Shown: piece by piece, positions 40,067-47,067 of the stretch | Numbering within the stretch: position 1 is the stretch's first letter | Layout of the letters: each line of letters opens with the position of its first letter | Assembly: GCF_014653175.1 (NCBI RefSeq) | Contig: NZ_BNAG01000003.1 | Coordinates: 744,001-808,000, forward strand | From: Roseivirga thermotolerans | GTDB taxonomy: Bacteria; Bacteroidota; Bacteroidia; Cytophagales; Cyclobacteriaceae | Length of the DNA stretch: 64,000 nucleotides | Direction of reading: 5' to 3' | The notes under the pieces: generated by a model | Told to the model about the DNA's origin: nothing | Database searches by the model: none | What the model saw: the letters and a program-made list of their open reading frames with translations, nothing else | Translations under genes and position numbers: made by a program

Positions 40067-41473
40067 ATGAACAAAATTAAACTCAATACTACCTACAAAA
40101 AGCTACTGGCCGATACGGTAACGCCAGTAAGCATTTACCTGAAGCTACGCGATAAATACCAGAATGCCATTCTGCTGGAAAGCTCTGACTATCATGGAGA
40201 TGATAACAGTTTCTCTTACATTTGCTGTGAACCTATTGCCAGGTTAATGGTAAAGGACTCTAAGTTCGAAATGAGCTTGCCCGGTCATTCAGAGCACGGT
40301 AAGGTTGAAGGCAATCAGGTGGCAGCTAAGCTCTCGGAATTTGCCGCTTCATTCGAGCCAGACTCCAGCGAATTTAAGTTTATTAACAACGGACTCTTTG
40401 GTTATATCGGATACGATGCGGTTCAGTATTTCGAACAGATTCCGGTGACCGAAGGAAAGACCGATGAATACGAAATTCCCGACTTGCTCTATCATGTCTA
40501 TCGCTATGTCATTGCCATAGACCATTTTAAAAATGAGCTTTACCTTTTCGAACATTCACCGGAAGGCACGGAGCCAAAAGGTATTCAGTCTATCGAGACT
40601 TTGGTGAACAATAAGAACTATCCGTCTTATGAGTTTGCTCCACAGTCAGAAGAAGTTTCTAATTATACTGATGAAGAATTCCTCTCGATTATAGACGAAG
40701 GCATGAAGCATTGTTTCCGTGGCGATGTGTTTCAAATTGTGCTTTCCAGAAGATTTCAGAGTCGGTTTAAGGGAGATGAGTTCAACGTGTATCGTGCGTT
40801 GAGGTCAGTGAATCCTTCACCATACTTATTCTATTTCGACTTTGGAAGCTTCAAAATCTTTGGTTCATCGCCAGAAGCTCAGTTGGTGATTAAAGACCGT
40901 AAGGCAACAATCCACCCAATTGCAGGGACTTTTAAACGTACTGGAAATGATGAGGCAGATGCTGAACTGGCCAAGAAGCTTCATGCCGATCCGAAAGAAA
41001 ATTCTGAGCACGTGATGCTAGTCGACTTGGCCAGAAATGACCTGAGCAGAGCTGGTTCAAATGTTCAGGTAGATACTTACAAAGAGATTCAATACTACTC
41101 GCACGTAATTCATCTGGTTTCCAAAGTAACGGGAACTTTGTCAGACGATATGCAATCGACCCAGATGGTGGCGGGTACTTTCCCTGCCGGAACCTTGAGT
41201 GGAGCGCCAAAAGTTCGGGCCATGCAGCTCATCAATACCAATGAAAAAACGAGGCGAGGCTATTATGGTGGGGCCATCGGTTTTATGGGCTTTAACGGAG
41301 ATTTCAATCACGCCATTATGATCCGTTCATTCCTGACCAAGAACAACACTTTGTTTTATCAGGCTGGTGCCGGAGTAGTAGCCAAATCGAATAGAGAATC
41401 AGAATTACAAGAAGTAAATAATAAACTGGCTGCCTTGAGAAAGGCCATTGAGCTGGCGAAAGAAATTCGCTAG
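40067..41473 (+). CDS. trpE: Anthranilate synthase component I
   Basis: 468 residues with the chorismate-utilising core: FSYICCEPIARLMV, GLFGYIGYDAVQYFE, GDVFQIVLSRRF, SPEAQLVIKDRKATIHPIAGTFKR, LVDLARNDLSRAG, VAGTFPAGTLSGAPKVRAMQLI and FYQAGAGVVAKSNRESELQEVNNK. The N-terminal site usually carrying the Trp-inhibition motif LLES is present as LLESSDYHGDDNSFSYI. It converts chorismate and glutamine to anthranilate with TrpG. First enzyme of the operon. Confidence 0.97.
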   Translation: MNKIKLNTTYKKLLADTVTPVSIYLKLRDKYQNAILLESSDYHGDDNSFSYICCEPIARLMVKDSKFEMSLPGHSEHGKVEGNQVAAKLSEFAASFEPDSSEFKFINNGLFGYIGYDAVQYFEQIPVTEGKTDEYEIPDLLYHVYRYVIAIDHFKNELYLFEHSPEGTEPKGIQSIETLVNNKNYPSYEFAPQSEEVSNYTDEEFLSIIDEGMKHCFRGDVFQIVLSRRFQSRFKGDEFNVYRALRSVNPSPYLFYFDFGSFKIFGSSPEAQLVIKDRKATIHPIAGTFKRTGNDEADAELAKKLHADPKENSEHVMLVDLARNDLSRAGSNVQVDTYKEIQYYSHVIHLVSKVTGTLSDDMQSTQMVAGTFPAGTLSGAPKVRAMQLINTNEKTRRGYYGGAIGFMGFNGDFNHAIMIRSFLTKNNTLFYQAGAGVVAKSNRESELQEVNNKLAALRKAIELAKEIR

Positions 41474-41475
41474 TT

Positions 41476-41579
41476 ATCAGTATATCAGAAATAAGTAAAA
41501 AGTAGACATGCGCACATTTAAAGAATTGGAAGCTTGGAGACAGGCAAAACCTTAAGCCCCTGATAACTGATATACTGAT
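41476..41579 (+). repeat. Inverted repeat bracketing a gene stub in the trpE-trpG spacer
   Basis: ATCAGTATATCAG (41476-41488) and its perfect reverse complement CTGATATACTGAT (41567-41579) flank the 15-codon stub at 41508-41555. Confidence 0.85.
41508..41555 (+). pseudogene. Stub of a four-helix-bundle (S23/IVS-type) protein gene
   Basis: Reads MRTFKELEAWRQAKP then TAA. The first 12 codons match the start of the intact gene at 42197 (MRTFKELEVWKQTRE); the remaining about 110 codons are gone. The stub sits between inverted repeats, so I read it as a decayed third copy of the passenger gene. Confidence 0.85.
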
Positions 41580-41601
41580 CCACTGATCACTTATAAAGAC
41601 A

Positions 41602-42171
41602 ATGAAAATACTCATACTAGATAACTACGATTCATTCACCTATAACCTGGTGCATTACCTGAGAGAGCTTGGGTATGGAGCGGAGATGGATGTTTTTCGC
41701 AACGATCAGATTGCTCTGGAAGCAGTCGATGAATACGATAAAATACTCTTGTCGCCTGGCCCGGGTATTCCGGAGGAAGCAGGCATTCTTCTGCCATTGA
41801 TCAAACAATATGGTAGTAAGAAAAGCATACTAGGCGTTTGTTTGGGGCATCAGGCAATTGCTGAGTCTTATGGTGCTAAGCTTTACAATATGCCACAAGT
41901 ATTGCATGGGGTGTCCAGCCAAGTGCGGGTGCTAGATAAACAAGACAGACTGTTCAAGGAGATTCCGGAGAGCTACACCATTTGCCATTACCATAGCTGG
42001 AATGTAGACAAAGCCAATTTAGGCCAGGAAATTAAGGTGACTGCCGAAGATGAATTCGGGGAAATCATGGCCATCAGTCATAAAGAATATGATGTGAAAG
42101 GCGTGCAGTTTCATCCGGAGTCTATTATGACGGAGTATGGGCATCAGTTGCTGCGCAACTGGATGGAGTAA
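41602..42171 (+). CDS. trpG: Anthranilate synthase component II (glutamine amidotransferase)
   Basis: 189 residues, class I glutamine amidotransferase: ILDNYDSFTYNLVHYL, LSPGPGIPEEAG, nucleophile Cys in LGVCLGHQAIAESYG and catalytic His-Glu in GVQFHPESIMTEYG. It supplies ammonia to TrpE. It ends with NWME, the usual terminus of TrpG, and is not fused to trpD. Confidence 0.97.
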   Translation: MKILILDNYDSFTYNLVHYLRELGYGAEMDVFRNDQIALEAVDEYDKILLSPGPGIPEEAGILLPLIKQYGSKKSILGVCLGHQAIAESYGAKLYNMPQVLHGVSSQVRVLDKQDRLFKEIPESYTICHYHSWNVDKANLGQEIKVTAEDEFGEIMAISHKEYDVKGVQFHPESIMTEYGHQLLRNWME

Positions 42172-42174
42172 GCA

Positions 42175-42595
42175 GTTATCAGTAAACAGTAGGCACATGA
42201 GAACATTTAAAGAGTTGGAGGTTTGGAAGCAAACTAGAGAATTAAGAAAGGAAATTGCTCAATTGGTGAAGAGGTTTCCAACGGATGAAAAATATAAACT
42301 AACCGATCAAATGATTAGGGCAGCTAGGTCAGTCACAGCAAACATTGCAGAAGGTTATGGACGGTTTCATTATCAGGAGAACATTCAATTCTGTAGAATT
42401 TCCAGAGGTTCCTTAACGGAGCTTCAAGATCATCTTACGGTTGCTGTCGATGAGGGGTATATTGATGAGAGTGAGGAGAAATTGTTTGACATCAGGATAG
42501 AGGAGTGCATTCGAATTCTCAATGGTTACATCAACTACCTGTTGAAATCCAAACTGACTAAACTCTAATTACTGATTAACTGATCTACTGATAAC
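42175..42595 (+). repeat. Inverted repeat bracketing the S23-type gene in the trpG-trpD spacer
   Basis: GTTATCAGTA (42175-42184) and TACTGATAAC (42586-42595), perfect 10-base inverted repeat; the right flank repeats ACTGAT-like words several times. Confidence 0.8.
42197..42568 (+). CDS. Four-helix-bundle protein (S23/IVS type), copy 1
   Basis: 123 residues from ATG 42197; the frame runs on to 42137 but that part is the trpG end in another frame. Hallmarks of the family are FKELEVWKQTRELRKEIAQLVKRFP, YKLTDQMIRAARSVTANIAEGYGRF, QFCRISRGSLTELQDHLTVAVDEGYI and IRILNGYINYLLK. The family is named for proteins encoded by insertions in bacterial 23S rRNA genes and is structurally related to the Avd accessory proteins of diversity-generating retroelements. 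Function is not established. Its place within trp genes suggests insertion as a passenger rather than a pathway role. Confidence 0.92.
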   Translation: MRTFKELEVWKQTRELRKEIAQLVKRFPTDEKYKLTDQMIRAARSVTANIAEGYGRFHYQENIQFCRISRGSLTELQDHLTVAVDEGYIDESEEKLFDIRIEECIRILNGYINYLLKSKLTKL

Positions 42596-42618
42596 CGATC
42601 ACTGTTCAACTAATAACA

Positions 42619-43608
42619 ATGAAAGAAATACTAAATCAACTCATAGAATACAAGTCGCTGGATAAGCAAACCGCTAAGGAGATACTCATCAATCTGGCGC
42701 AGGGTAAATACAACCAAAGTCAGGTAGCGGCATTCCTCACGGTTTACCTCATGCGAAGCATTACTGTAGAGGAACTTGAGGGTTTCCGCGATGCAATGCT
42801 CGATTTATGTGTTCCAATAGAAATTCCTGAATATGATGCCATAGACCTTTGCGGAACAGGTGGAGACGGAAAGAATACCTTCAATATTTCCACCTTGTCT
42901 TCCTTTATTGTAGCGGGAGCAGGGCAAAATGTGGCTAAGCATGGTAACAATGGAGTTTCATCGGTTTCGGGTTCGTCTAATCTAATGGCGTACTTTGGTT
43001 ATGAGTTCACTAACGACCTTGGCAAGTTGAGAAAGAGTCTGGATGAATGCGGGTTGTGTTTCTTACACGCGCCTTTGTTTCACCCAGCTATGAAGAATGT
43101 AGCACCCATCAGAAGAGATTTAGGGGTGAAAACCTTCTTCAATATGTTGGGGCCGATGGTAAATCCATCCTTCCCTAAAAAGCAGTTGGTAGGGGTGTTC
43201 AGCCTAGAGCTGGCCAGACTTTACGGTTACTTATATCAGAAAACCGACAAACACTTTGTGATTCTTCATGCAATGGATGGTTATGATGAAATCTCACTGA
43301 CCGGAGCATTCAAGAAGATCACCAACGACAAGGAAGAAATCGTAAATCCTGAAGAAATGGGGCTTCAAACCATACAACCCGAGGCTATTTTTGGTGGGGA
43401 AACCGTTGAAGAGTCGGCTAAAATATTTGAAAACATATTAAAAGGAGAGGGTACAAAACCACAGAATGAAGTGGTCATTGCCAACGCAGCTATGGCTATT
43501 CAGTGTGGAAAAGGAGTTACTACTGATGATGCACTAGGCATGGCTCGTGAATCGCTCGAAAGCGGAAAAGCATTGAAAACATTCAAGAAAATTTTAGAAA
43601 TCAGTTAA
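42619..43608 (+). CDS. trpD: Anthranilate phosphoribosyltransferase
   Basis: 329 residues. Motifs DLCGTGGDGKNTFNISTLSSFIVAGAGQNVAKHGNNGVSSVSGSSNLMAYFG, FLHAPLFHPAMKNVAPIRRDLGVKTFFNMLGPMVNPSFPKKQLVGVF and HAMDGYDEISLTGAF define the PRPP- and anthranilate-binding sites. Second step of tryptophan synthesis. Confidence 0.97.
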   Translation: MKEILNQLIEYKSLDKQTAKEILINLAQGKYNQSQVAAFLTVYLMRSITVEELEGFRDAMLDLCVPIEIPEYDAIDLCGTGGDGKNTFNISTLSSFIVAGAGQNVAKHGNNGVSSVSGSSNLMAYFGYEFTNDLGKLRKSLDECGLCFLHAPLFHPAMKNVAPIRRDLGVKTFFNMLGPMVNPSFPKKQLVGVFSLELARLYGYLYQKTDKHFVILHAMDGYDEISLTGAFKKITNDKEEIVNPEEMGLQTIQPEAIFGGETVEESAKIFENILKGEGTKPQNEVVIANAAMAIQCGKGVTTDDALGMARESLESGKALKTFKKILEIS

Positions 43609-43614
43609 TCAGAA

Positions 43615-43653
43615 AATAGAAAACGGGAGCTTGAAAACTGATTTCTGTTTTCT
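43615..43653 (+). repeat. Inverted repeat in the trpD-trpC spacer without a passenger gene
   Basis: CAGAAAA and TTTTCTG arms around a gggagcttga core; no reading frame inside. It resembles the bordering repeats of the passenger genes, in empty form. Confidence 0.5.
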
Positions 43654-43672
43654 GGTCACCCGATAACCAAAT

Positions 43673-44476
43673 ATGGATATACTACAAAAAATCATCGCGC
43701 ATAAGCACAAGGAAGTAGAGGAGAGAAGGTCGCTTTACACAGAGAAACTGTTGGAACAAAGCATCTACTTTGAGGGCAAACCAATATCACTGAAGAAGTA
43801 TTTGTTGCGAGAAGACAAGTCGGGCATTATTGCCGAGTTCAAGCGTCAGTCGCCCTCTAAAGGGGTGATTAACGCTCATGCTCCTGTAGAAAGAACAACC
43901 ATCGGCTATATGCAGGCTGGTGCTTCGGCATTATCGGTGTTGACCGACTCTGAGTTCTTTGGAGGAAGCAGCGAAGACCTGAGCACAGCCAGAAAATTCA
44001 ACTTTTGTCCGGTACTTAGGAAAGACTTTATCATTGATGAGTATCAGATTGTGGAGGCAAAATCTATCGGTGCCGATGCCATTTTGCTTATCGCATCGGC
44101 TTTAGAACCTAGAAGATTGAAGGAGTTGGCGGCATTCGCCAAGAGTTTTGGTTTAGAAGTGCTGATGGAAGTTCACAATCAGGAAGAATTGGAAAACAAC
44201 CTGAATGAACATCTGGATGTAGTGGGTGTGAATAACAGGAACCTGAAAACCTTCGAAGTATCCATTGATATTAGTAAGCAATTGGCCCCAATGATCCCGA
44301 ATGATTTCGTGAAAATCTCAGAAAGTGGCATTAGCGATCCTGCTACTATCATGGACTTAAGAACTCACGGTTTCCAAGGCTTCTTGATTGGGGAAACATT
44401 TATGAAAGCGGGAAGGCCGGAAAGAGCCGCAGCGGAATTCATCGATTCTCTAAATCGTAAATTGGTTAATGGTTAA
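43673..44476 (+). CDS. trpC: Indole-3-glycerol-phosphate synthase
   Basis: 267 residues, TIM barrel: IIAEFKRQSPSKG (Lys), SALSVLTDSEFFGGSSEDL, PVLRKDFIIDEYQI, ADAILLIASAL, EVLMEVHNQEEL, VGVNNRNLKTFEV, KISESGISDP and GFLIGETFMKAG. It converts CdRP to indole-3-glycerol phosphate. It is not fused to trpF. Confidence 0.97.
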   Translation: MDILQKIIAHKHKEVEERRSLYTEKLLEQSIYFEGKPISLKKYLLREDKSGIIAEFKRQSPSKGVINAHAPVERTTIGYMQAGASALSVLTDSEFFGGSSEDLSTARKFNFCPVLRKDFIIDEYQIVEAKSIGADAILLIASALEPRRLKELAAFAKSFGLEVLMEVHNQEELENNLNEHLDVVGVNNRNLKTFEVSIDISKQLAPMIPNDFVKISESGISDPATIMDLRTHGFQGFLIGETFMKAGRPERAAAEFIDSLNRKLVNG

Positions 44477-44479
44477 TAC

Positions 44480-44939
44480 GTTAATCGTTGAATAGGGGAA
44501 ATAGTAAATACACACAAAATGGATGTAAGAAGCTTTATGGATTTAGATTGCTGGAAGGTGGCTAGAGAGTTTAGAAATAGAATATCAATGTTAGCAAAGT
44601 CTTTTCCAGTGGAAGAAAAGTACGGTTTAACCAGCCAGATAAAACGGTCTTCACGCTCTGTGACGGCTAATATTGCAGAAGGGTATGGTAGATTTCATCA
44701 TCAAGAGAACATACAGTTCTGTAGAATGTCAAGAGGGTCATTGACTGAAACCCTTGATCATTTAACTGTGGCTTTAGATGAGAAATATATTTCTGAGGAT
44801 CAATTCTTTGACTTTAAAACAGAACTAGAGAGGTGTCTAAAGGTTCTAAACGGTTACATCAATTACCTCCGAAAGCTTAAGTCTAGCACAAAATGATGCC
44901 TAGTATTAAACGATTAACCAATAACTAATAACGATTAAC
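44480..44939 (+). repeat. Inverted repeat bracketing the S23-type gene in the trpC-trpF spacer
   Basis: GTTAATCGTT (44480-44489) on the left; its reverse complement AACGATTAAC occurs twice on the right (44909-44918 and 44930-44939). Confidence 0.85.
44519..44896 (+). CDS. Four-helix-bundle protein (S23/IVS type), copy 2
   Basis: 125 residues: MDLDCWKVAREFRNRISMLAKSFPVEEKYGLTSQIKRSSRSVTANIAEGYGRFHHQENIQFCRMSRGSLTETLDHLTVALDEKYI. It keeps the same conserved RSVTANIAEGYGRF core as copy 1 but is clearly diverged elsewhere, so it looks like an older or independent insertion rather than a fresh duplicate. The IR words on its flanks (GTTAATCGTT) also differ from those of copy 1. Confidence 0.92.
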   Translation: MDVRSFMDLDCWKVAREFRNRISMLAKSFPVEEKYGLTSQIKRSSRSVTANIAEGYGRFHHQENIQFCRMSRGSLTETLDHLTVALDEKYISEDQFFDFKTELERCLKVLNGYINYLRKLKSSTK

Positions 44940-44943
44940 CAAA

Positions 44944-45558
44944 ATGAAACTCAAAGTGTGCGGCATGAGAGAACCTCACAACATCCAACAGCTGTTGGAG
45001 TTGGAGCCTGATTTCATGGGTTTTATTTTCTTCGAGCGTTCCAAGCGATTTGCACCTGATCTGGATAAAGAACTGTTGCTAGGGTTTCCTGAAACCACAA
45101 AAAAAGTGGGTGTTTTCGTCAATGCACCAATTCAACAGGTAAAGGAAAAAGTTAGGCAGTACAAACTCGATTATGTTCAGTTGCATGGTGACGAGTCGGT
45201 TGAGTATGTGGGAGAGCTTTTCGCCATTGGTATCAAGGTAATTAAAGTGCTTTCAGTGGGTGAGGAGTTTGATTTCGACCAACTGAAACCATATAAGGGA
45301 TTGGTAGACTTCTTCCTTTTCGATACGAAAGGGAAAGAACGAGGAGGTAATGGTGTGGTATTCAATTGGGAGGTTTTAAATAACTATCCCTATGATGTGC
45401 CTTACTTGTTAAGTGGAGGAATCGATCTGGAAAATGTGAAAGATATAGCCGGCTTGAAAGTTCAACCTTATGCGATAGATGTGAACTCCAAGTTTGAGCT
45501 AAAGCCAGGTTTGAAGGATATAGAGCAAGTGAAAATGCTCAAGGAGATTTTAAAATAG
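44944..45558 (+). CDS. trpF: Phosphoribosylanthranilate isomerase
   Basis: 204 residues, TIM barrel: KVCGMREPHNIQQL (Cys catalytic), DFMGFIFFERSKRFA, VGVFVNAPIQ, LDYVQLHGDESVEY, FFLFDTKGKERGGNGVVFNW (Asp catalytic), YLLSGGIDLEN and AIDVNSKFELKPGLKD. It converts PRA to CdRP. Confidence 0.97.
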   Translation: MKLKVCGMREPHNIQQLLELEPDFMGFIFFERSKRFAPDLDKELLLGFPETTKKVGVFVNAPIQQVKEKVRQYKLDYVQLHGDESVEYVGELFAIGIKVIKVLSVGEEFDFDQLKPYKGLVDFFLFDTKGKERGGNGVVFNWEVLNNYPYDVPYLLSGGIDLENVKDIAGLKVQPYAIDVNSKFELKPGLKDIEQVKMLKEILK

Positions 45559-45560
45559 AA

Positions 45561-45636
45561 CGTCACTGCGAGGCACGAAGCAGTGTCCTCAAATGGATAA
45601 GGAAATTGCCACGGTCGTACCTCCCTCGCAGTGACG
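45561..45636. repeat. CGTCA/TGACG palindromic element (13-base arms)
   Basis: CGTCACTGCGAGG (45561-45573) and CCTCGCAGTGACG (45624-45636), perfect inverted repeat, between trpF and trpB. This sequence type recurs in many Bacteroidetes genomes to my knowledge. Confidence 0.9.
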
Positions 45637-45650
45637 TAATAAAATAGATT

Positions 45651-46832
45651 ATGAAAATAAAAGTAGACGAGCGAGGGTATTACGGCAATTTCGGAGGGGC
45701 ATACATCCCCGAAATGCTATACCCGAATGTGGAAGAGTTAAGAGATAACTACGAAGCCATCACTTCAGATCCGGACTTTAAGAAACAGTTCGATCAGTTA
45801 TTGAAAGACTATGTGGGCAGGCCAACTCCGCTTTATCTGGCGGAAAGGCTTTCTGAGCATTATGGTGCCAAAATATATCTCAAACGAGAGGACCTTTGCC
45901 ATACCGGTGCTCATAAAGTGAACAATACCATCGGGCAAATTCTACTCGCTCAGCGATTGGGCAAGAAGAAGATCATTGCCGAAACAGGAGCAGGACAACA
46001 TGGCGTGGCCACAGCCACGGTTTGTGCCCTGATGGGAGTTGAGTGCATCGTATATATGGGTGAGGTAGATATGGCGCGTCAAAAGCCAAATGTGGAGCGC
46101 ATGCGTATTCTGGGAGCGGAGGTTCGTCCTGCAACCAGCGGAAGCAAAACACTCAAAGATGCCACTAATGAAGCCATGCGTCATTGGATCAACAACCCAA
46201 CCGATACGCACTACATCATCGGTTCTGTAGTTGGGCCACACCCTTATCCAGAAATGGTTGCCAGATTTCAGTCGGTTATTAGTGCAGAAATCAGAACCCA
46301 GTTGAAGGAGAAAGAGGGCACTGAATTACCAAACTACGTAGTCGCTTGTGTAGGCGGTGGTAGCAATGCTGCAGGCGCTTTCTACAACTATTATGACGAA
46401 GAAGAGGTGGCCTTAGTAGCCGTTGAAGCAGCGGGTTTGGGTAATACCACTGGTAAAAGTGCTGCTACGACTACGCTGGGTAAGCCGGGCATTTTGCACG
46501 GAAGTAAAACGCTTCTCATGCAGACAGAAGATGGTCAGGTTGTTGAGCCTTATTCAATCTCTGCCGGTCTGGATTATCCGGGAATTGGTCCCGTGCATGC
46601 GCATCTTTTCGAAACGGGTAGAGGAACTTTCTACAGTGTAACCGATGAAGAAGCCATGAAAGCAGGTATTCAACTCAGCCGACTGGAGGGAATTATTCCA
46701 GCTATTGAATCGGCCCATGCCTTTGCAGCGTTGAATCAGATGTCATTGAAGCCTGATGATCTGGTAGTTATCAACCTGTCAGGAAGAGGAGACAAGGACC
46801 TGGAGACATATATTAAATGGGGGAAGTATTAA
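45651..46832 (+). CDS. trpB: Tryptophan synthase beta chain
   Basis: 393 residues, PLP enzyme: [45 protein letters not shown] (PLP Lys), [44 protein letters not shown] and [19 protein letters not shown]. It condenses indole and serine. It forms the alpha2-beta2 complex with TrpA, whose gene follows after a 265-base spacer with repeats. Confidence 0.98.
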
Positions 46833-46878
46833 ACGAGTACTAAGTATTGAGTACAGAGTACTGAGACAGCCTAGTGAA

Positions 46879-46970
46879 TTTATTTGGTTTTGTGAACACC
46901 ATTGGCTCCTTCTCTATTTGGAGAAGGCGGGGAATGAGGCCAAATAAAAAATATTCACAAAACAAATGAA
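46879..46970. repeat. Palindromic element in the trpB-trpA spacer
   Basis: Arms ATTTGGTTTTGTGAA and TTCACAAAACAAAT match with one mismatch; inner hairpin CCTTCTC-TATTTG-GAGAAGG. No gene inside. Confidence 0.7.
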
Positions 46971-47003
46971 TGAACTGAGTTAGAGAATAGACTAAATAAA
47001 GAA

Positions 47004-47067
47004 CGTCACCCTGAACTTGTTTCAGGGTCTGCAAATTAGAAGATGCTGAAACAAGTTCAGCATGACG
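47004..47067. repeat. CGTCA/TGACG palindromic element upstream of trpA
   Basis: CGTCACCCTGAACTTGTTTCAGGG on the left, ending in GTTCAGCATGACG on the right. A near copy lies at 49528-49611. The trpA frame extends into it from 47062, but the proper start lies after it. In the reverse frame it reads HAELVSA...TLKQVQGD, a peptide that recurs in spurious frames of many genomes. Confidence 0.9.

Follow-up and report, generated by a model that had tools for sequence, protein, structure and literature searches.

Why does a tryptophan operon carry small genes of the S23 family in the spacers between its own genes? The question is raised by the trpE-G-D-C-F-B-A operon in a stretch of 64,000 nucleotides (the window; all coordinates are window positions) from the genome of the marine bacterium Roseivirga thermotolerans, called G000 below (contig NZ_BNAG01000003.1, positions 744,001 to 808,000). 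A first-pass annotation had proposed that small cassettes, each made of one gene bounded by inverted repeats, entered this operon repeatedly without breaking the trp genes, and that they represent an undescribed type of mobile element. Our best reading is that operon spacers widely harbour cassettes of the intervening sequence (IVS) type, which are known from 23S rRNA. Such a cassette consists of one four-helix S23 gene of about 120 amino acids, in sense orientation, between inverted arms that are often degenerate tandem words of 7-8 nt, and it occupies the spacer between the stop codon of the upstream gene and the start region of the downstream one. As a whole, we consider this explanation of the window trp operon somewhat probable. 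The two intact cassettes, the decayed one and the association of their layout with S23 genes are observed directly, whereas the spread of arms and gene as a unit is inferred.

The two intact genes expected in the trpG-trpD (G-D) and trpC-trpF (C-F) spacers, a and b, are both present as open reading frames (ORFs), and both match the S23 family PF05635 above its curated cut-off of 33.8 bits (Table 1). For gene a, an earlier in-frame ATG exists at position 42137. The stub reported between trpE and trpG (E-G) was recovered as 15 S23 codons followed by a stop. The two intact proteins are 60% identical, and both retain RSVTANIAEGYGRF, in agreement with the earlier description of diverged proteins keeping this motif. 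The arms of the E-G cassette pair exactly over 13 bp, and for all three cassettes the observed arm score was reached by none of 2000 shuffles that preserved base content, not dinucleotides (p 0.0005 each). However, the 5′ arm of the E-G cassette pairs with the 3′ arm of the G-D cassette with a score of 32, which exceeds the scores with their own partners (26 and 22), while the C-F arms cross-pair weakly with both (10-17). By their words, the E-G and G-D arms form one family and the C-F arms a second. Inverted repeats are thus real on both sides at all three sites, but they are not peculiar to each cassette as had been claimed.

These cassettes are located between trp genes and not inside an rRNA gene. 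The whole genome gave 11 hits to PF05635, three of them with in-frame stops and two being pieces of one split gene; by eye, the copies sit in intergenic spacers, one of them before a gene that we take to be ftsZ. Three other copies are only 27-34% identical to gene a. Together with the 60% identity of the trp pair, this means that G000 does not hold several near-identical copies.

The occupancy of the trp spacers was then compared across the genus (19 genomes, of which 18 gave a TrpC match). S23 genes were found in the E-G, G-D or C-F spacer of 9 of the 18 operons, at sites that vary between species: 6 of the 17 observable E-G spacers, 2 of the 18 G-D spacers and 2 of the 18 C-F spacers. The contig of G155 is cut before trpE and that of G156 ends inside trpB, so that some spacers are out of view, and the tblastn search used misses stubs like that of the window. 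The relatives therefore do not all carry S23 at the same sites, a pattern that the first-pass annotation had equated with vertical inheritance. Across the spacers S23 is present, absent or replaced while the trp frames stay open, as expected for entry that does not break the operon. The E-G spacer is itself variable, since trpE and trpG abut or overlap in four genomes (G162, G157, G161 and G160). Somewhere in the genome, S23 genes are present in all 18 members of the genus (2 to 11 hits); in a wider sample from the family, 128 of 148 genomes have them.

Replacement is directly visible in the E-G spacer of G057, G148 and G151, whose trpE and trpG are 90-94% identical at the DNA level. The S23 genes of G057 and G151 are 89% identical to each other, whereas that of G148 shares only 64-65% identity with them and has different arms; the replaced stretch runs from immediately after the trpE stop codon to near the trpG start. 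Likeness across spacers was also observed. In a tree of 78 S23 proteins, built from few columns, a clade A (support 100/95) unites the G-D genes of G000 and G163 with the E-G genes of G156, G057 and G151, and within it the G000 G-D and G156 E-G genes are sisters (99/90) despite their different spacers. The remaining five trp S23 genes, from E-G and C-F spacers, cluster with two outside sequences (84/90). The alignment of the G000 G-D cassette with the G156 E-G cassette spans the gene (77% nucleotide identity) and the arms and stops before the flanking genes. The same limits hold in the Bacteroidales metagenome-assembled genome (MAG) G166, where two S23 loci are 85.8% identical and the likeness is confined to gene and arms. 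Decay of one copy is seen in the window itself: the E-G stub of G000 aligns with the start of the cassette that is intact in G156 (MAG HF-Din09), and their 3′ arms match by eye.

The arms are not peculiar to the trp operon. They were found at 37 of 75 S23 genes as against 16 of 451 neighbour genes; this sample was drawn from 80 loci, leaving out the flankless L111 and four loci with ORFs under 110 aa. Two further samples gave arms at 14/30 and 19/30 genes (0 and 1 of 150 shuffles), and an additional one, drawn from 40 loci and without a control of its own, at 20/37. When matched co-directional operon genes served as the control, the counts were 26/47 for S23 and 5/68 for the others; all five control genes with arms encode fewer than 200 aa, and their count is probably inflated by S23, since second S23 genes at the loci can pass such thresholds. 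In the pooled sample, 80 of 160 own flank pairs had matching arms compared with 1302 of 25440 mismatched pairs. The samples (75; 30 and 30; the pooled 160; 37) overlap, some loci being the same place twice, and one set of 30 comprises the best-scoring loci of the family, many at the same conserved sites, so that the loci are not independent. Local alignment was used for these counts in place of an earlier duplex-energy test, which was weak (13 of 79 own flanks in the best 5%). Inverted flanks accompany about half of the S23 genes elsewhere, which contradicts the possibility raised at the outset that such flanks would share no inverted repeats, and supports the view of one-gene cassettes bounded by them.

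A scan blind to gene identity, which covered 79 named loci (query S23 excluded), 400 kb of the G000 genome and the window, returned nine small ORFs with strongly inverted flanks, of which six were S23 genes. Three of these are orthologues of one Balneola-type site; the C-F gene of the window was found and the G-D gene was missed. The other hits were a gene adjoining S23 (L109), a gene about 1.5 kb from S23 (L110) and an ORF at L098, which we take to be RAYT-like. The flanks of S23 genes are also periodic. A self-match of at least 0.5 occurred at lag 7 in 38 and at lag 8 in 33 of 303 flanks (0 and 1 after shuffling), as compared with 1 and 0 of 205 other G000 spacers. Furthermore, 64 of 69 S23 genes were co-directional with both neighbours (219 of 384 other triples), and the stop codon of the upstream gene was TAG in 28/60 cases at S23 as against 114/524 (p 9e-5). 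At several loci the arm visibly begins within this stop codon. The cassette layout is common among S23 genes of Bacteroidota, and it recurs in some MAGs that carry the labels of other phyla; we distrust these labels. On one contig labelled Salinarimonas (L153), the neighbour gene resembles that of an Algoriphagus locus (L128), and this contig is possibly mis-binned.

The features of the window operon are collected in Table 1. Profile scans covered trpG and the S23 genes only; the names trpD, trpC, trpF and those of the remaining trp genes are our assumption from the families. Hairpins were also seen in S23-free spacers of the same operon (trpD-trpC and trpF-trpB). The trpF-trpB and trpB-trpA spacers (45558-45650 and 46832-47061) hold other types of palindrome (ACGTCACTGCGAGG; CACCCTGAACTTGTTTCAGG), and the trpB-trpA kind was met in other spacers as well. 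Long hairpins were considered as an abundant feature of G000 and rejected as such: over 400 kb of contig C3 together with the window, only 12 of the 149 co-directional spacers reached a score of 26, as compared with 2 after shuffling.

Table 1. Cassettes, hairpins and genes of the trp operon in the window (window positions)
Feature	Start	End	Strand	Details
trpE	40067	41473	+	ORF list; TAG stop 41471-41473 immediately 5′ of the first arm
E-G cassette, 5′ arm	41476	41488	+	ATCAGTATATCAG
S23 stub	41508	41555	+	48 nt: 15 initial codons and stop, read by eye
E-G cassette, 3′ arm	41567	41579	+	CTGATATACTGAT
trpG	41602	42171	+	ORF; GATase PF00117
G-D cassette, 5′ arm	42175	42190	+	
S23/IVP gene a	42197	42568	+	123 aa; PF05635 E 1.4e-34, 119 bits
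G-D cassette, 3′ arm	42579	42595	+	
trpD	42619	43608	+	ORF; name assumed
S23-free hairpin, trpD-trpC spacer	43610	43654	+	arms 43610-43622 / 43642-43654, p 0.003
trpC	43673	44476	+	ORF; name assumed
C-F cassette, 5′ arm	44480	44494	+	GTTAATCGTTGAATA
S23/IVP gene b	44519	44896	+	125 aa; PF05635 E 8.6e-34, 116.4 bits
C-F cassette, 3′ arm	44904	44918	+	TATTAAACGATTAAC; second AACGATTAACC near the trpF start
trpF	44944	45558	+	ORF; name assumed
S23-free hairpin, trpF-trpB spacer	45560	45637		arms 45560-45573 / 45624-45637, p 0.0005

Several other differences were noticed among the trp operons of the genus. Where the window has an S23 gene between trpC and trpF, G156 (L061) and G152 (L073) have a different ORF of about 120 aa between flanks of the TTGAATG type; the ORF of G152 had no match in Pfam, and these ORFs are possibly another cargo. 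In G156 (L061), TrpE, G, D, C and B (partial) share 92-98% identity with their counterparts in the window but TrpF only 50%, which suggests that trpF was replaced along with the adjoining spacer. The hairpin-bearing trpD-trpC spacer is near-identical in G148 (L069) and G151 (L070), and G057 has a different one. Since G148 and G151 are alike in this spacer but unlike in their E-G cassettes, mosaic exchange between these operons is indicated.

A number of results weigh against cassettes that spread freely as units. About half of the S23 loci have no arm match above the threshold, including the copy between fadB and fadA of G000, where the arms do not pair (score 8). In a harder test, only 24 of 75 own pairs exceeded the 95th percentile of the mismatched pairs and 4 the 99th, because arms of different loci share words. 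Co-directionality was lower in two other samples (21/29 and 15/22). A second tree that included the fad genes placed the ten trp S23 genes together, with that of G148 inside clade A (80/91); because the two trees disagree on the second trp clade, this clade is weak, and our confidence in the explanation preferred here is slightly reduced. At 77% nucleotide identity the best cross-site pair is old, and the event that links the G-D and E-G sites is not recent. No target-site duplication was recognised in the Roseivirga spacer alignments, which contain no young empty site. Part of the presence and absence in trp could reflect differential loss or recombination between species. All 8 genomes searched contained heptad arrays, for example GAGAAGC-GAGAGAC, and the reversed pattern gave 0 hits; of 30 array loci viewed (L318-L347), 12 have the array start at most 10 nt from the stop of the upstream gene, and only three have S23 in view. 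Since related words occur as dispersed arrays without S23, the arms may have been captured or recruited from host repeats rather than carried. Near the arrays at L324, L335 and L338, between other palindromes, lie small ORFs that presumably resemble GIY-YIG nucleases.

Evidence of this kind also came from the fadB-fadA spacer. The order fadB-S23-fadA was found in all 20 genomes fetched, which had been picked for having S23 there; the identities of S23 and FadA correlate across them (Mantel r 0.89, p 2e-4), and the site groups cluster in the tree (4 changes for a minimum of 2). These comparisons indicate that S23 at this site is largely inherited vertically and that many copies do not move. The words of the fad arms differ between genomes, and arms nevertheless tend to remain complementary to their own partner (median pairing 31, compared with 16 for the partners of others; permutation p 5e-5), the own partner taking the top rank in 7 of the 20. 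Of 13 S23 pairs, 10 had a measurable dS; the ratio of non-synonymous to synonymous substitution (dN/dS) in these was 0.02-0.21, which shows purifying selection on S23 in these pairs. Copies of the fad type are long-lived residents with a selected protein. The mobile cassette of the first-pass annotation is consequently upheld in part: presence, absence and replacement in trp speak for it, while the vertical history at fadB-fadA shows that S23 is not always freely mobile.

Such a history is what one would expect if S23 and its arms formed a host module, a regulatory or insulating unit resident in certain operons, with the variation in trp due to loss and recombination. The conserved fadB-S23-fadA order with its clustered site groups, the low dN/dS and the pairing of arms with their own partners despite different words would all fit. 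We nevertheless regard this explanation as doubtful, given that one S23 clade occupies different trp spacers and that close relatives have unlike S23 genes in the same spacer. A second explanation, that we also find possible but not probable, is an mRNA version of the rRNA IVS, in which the arms would form a stem in the transcript and RNase III would cleave it; excision of the S23 mRNA would leave the neighbouring cistrons as separate messages, so that the insertion is tolerated. The layout is the same as that of the Coxiella IVS (PMC4990558), S23 genes are mostly sense-oriented, arms tend to covary at the orthologous site, and in lenient alignments G-U mismatches were in excess (348 for a permutation expectation of 287, standard deviation 16). 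However, own pairs did not differ from mismatched ones in their ratio of G-U to A-C (0.899 and 0.897), strict alignments lacked the G-U excess over A-C that selection for RNA pairing would leave (74 vs 88, 54 vs 58 and 150 vs 186), and the G-D cassette of the window, the one cassette folded, folds no better than its shuffles (z -0.59). No clear RNA-level signature was thus found in the mismatch tests and the single fold. RNA pairing as a selected property of the arms has little support, which favours maintenance of the mirrored arms at the DNA level.

S23 could also be the passenger of non-autonomous transposons resembling miniature inverted-repeat transposable elements (MITEs) and moved by a transposase acting in trans. 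This is suggested by one genome, G176 (a MAG labelled Cloacimonadota), with 33 matches to an arm motif (17 forward, 16 reverse; 0 for the reversed control). Five aligned copies have S23 frames and common ends, six more two-armed copies have S23 frames that are shortened or altered by eye, and of 15 two-ended copies 6 are flanked by exact direct repeats of 8-9 bp, as judged by eye. These shared ends and direct repeats show that S23 can ride a classical-looking element, which, like the vertical history at fadB-fadA, limits the reading as an undescribed mobile element. An ISL3-type transposase was tried as the mobiliser of this family and rejected, PF01610, the sole family searched, being absent from G176 (the G000 genome was not searched). 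As an account of the Roseivirga cassettes the passenger model is unlikely: no such ends or duplication were recognised there, and the arm words vary from one locus to the next, where a transposon family would have fixed ends. The dispersed heptad arrays without S23 in the same family might lastly mean that ordinary simple-repeat spacers flank small ORFs by chance. We consider this very improbable, because the association of arms with S23 is strong and was repeated against several controls, and six of the nine hits of the gene-blind scan were S23 (three at one orthologous site).

If the spacer cassettes did spread as units, arms and gene would be copied together into other spacers of the same and of related genomes. 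Copies would persist over long times because sense insertion in a spacer is harmless and because S23 is useful to the element or to the host. The mirrored arms appear to be maintained as DNA; hairpin templating or conversion might achieve this, or the S23 bundle or an enzyme might recognise the hairpin. The 23S rRNA IVS would then be one special landing site. A more ambitious version, quite unlikely in our judgement, would make S23 a widespread class of elements whose ends are locus-specific words of 7-8 nt in mirrored tandem arrays, with the hairpin shape recognised by S23 or a partner, the arms kept in concert at the DNA level, the cassettes copied to spacers anchored at a stop codon, and the rRNA IVS as a rare landing. 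If S23 cassettes are widespread in spacers, with arms that are rewritten yet tend to stay paired and with a selected protein, the role of S23 and the movement of IVS become testable. For this, culturable Roseivirga strains offer S23 copies in every state, intact, replaced or decayed, as a series provided by nature within one well-known operon.

How do these cassettes compare with known systems? The S23 profile matches the solved structures 2gsc (XCC0516; E 1.6e-15) and 2rld (E 0.0026), which places the proteins with the S23-type four-helix proteins, of which Avd is a relative. Like the REP/RAYT systems, they involve dispersed palindromes with an associated protein; unlike them, the cassettes of the window have S23 as their single product. 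Heptanucleotide short tandem repeats (STRR) are known in cyanobacteria; the arms resemble them in being degenerate tandem words of 7-8 nt, with related words dispersed in the genomes, but here the words are mirrored around an S23 gene. The G176 family is similar to MITEs or internally deleted transposons in its terminal inverted repeats, its 8-9-bp direct repeats (6/15) and its shortened copies. It differs from them in carrying one conserved gene, and the Roseivirga type differs further, no fixed ends or duplication having been seen.

The closest counterpart is the IVS of 23S rRNA genes in Coxiella, Leptospira and others, likewise a single S23/IVP ORF between inverted repeats. PMC4990558 describes the Coxiella IVS as an S23 ORF between terminal inverted repeats that is excised by RNase III, and IVS elements in general as parasitic pieces of rRNA genes, sporadically distributed, of unclear function and origin, for which mobility has already been proposed. 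The general kind of element is known from that text. Among the literature matches listed, which cover few subscription journals, no account of S23 cassettes in operon spacers was present, which is no proof of novelty. The present cassettes occupy spacers of protein-gene operons, and their arms are in many cases arrays of tandem words, with different words at different loci. Finally, the ORF of the Coxiella IVS is said there to undergo reductive evolution (PMC4990558), in contrast to the S23 pairs measured here, which are under purifying selection.

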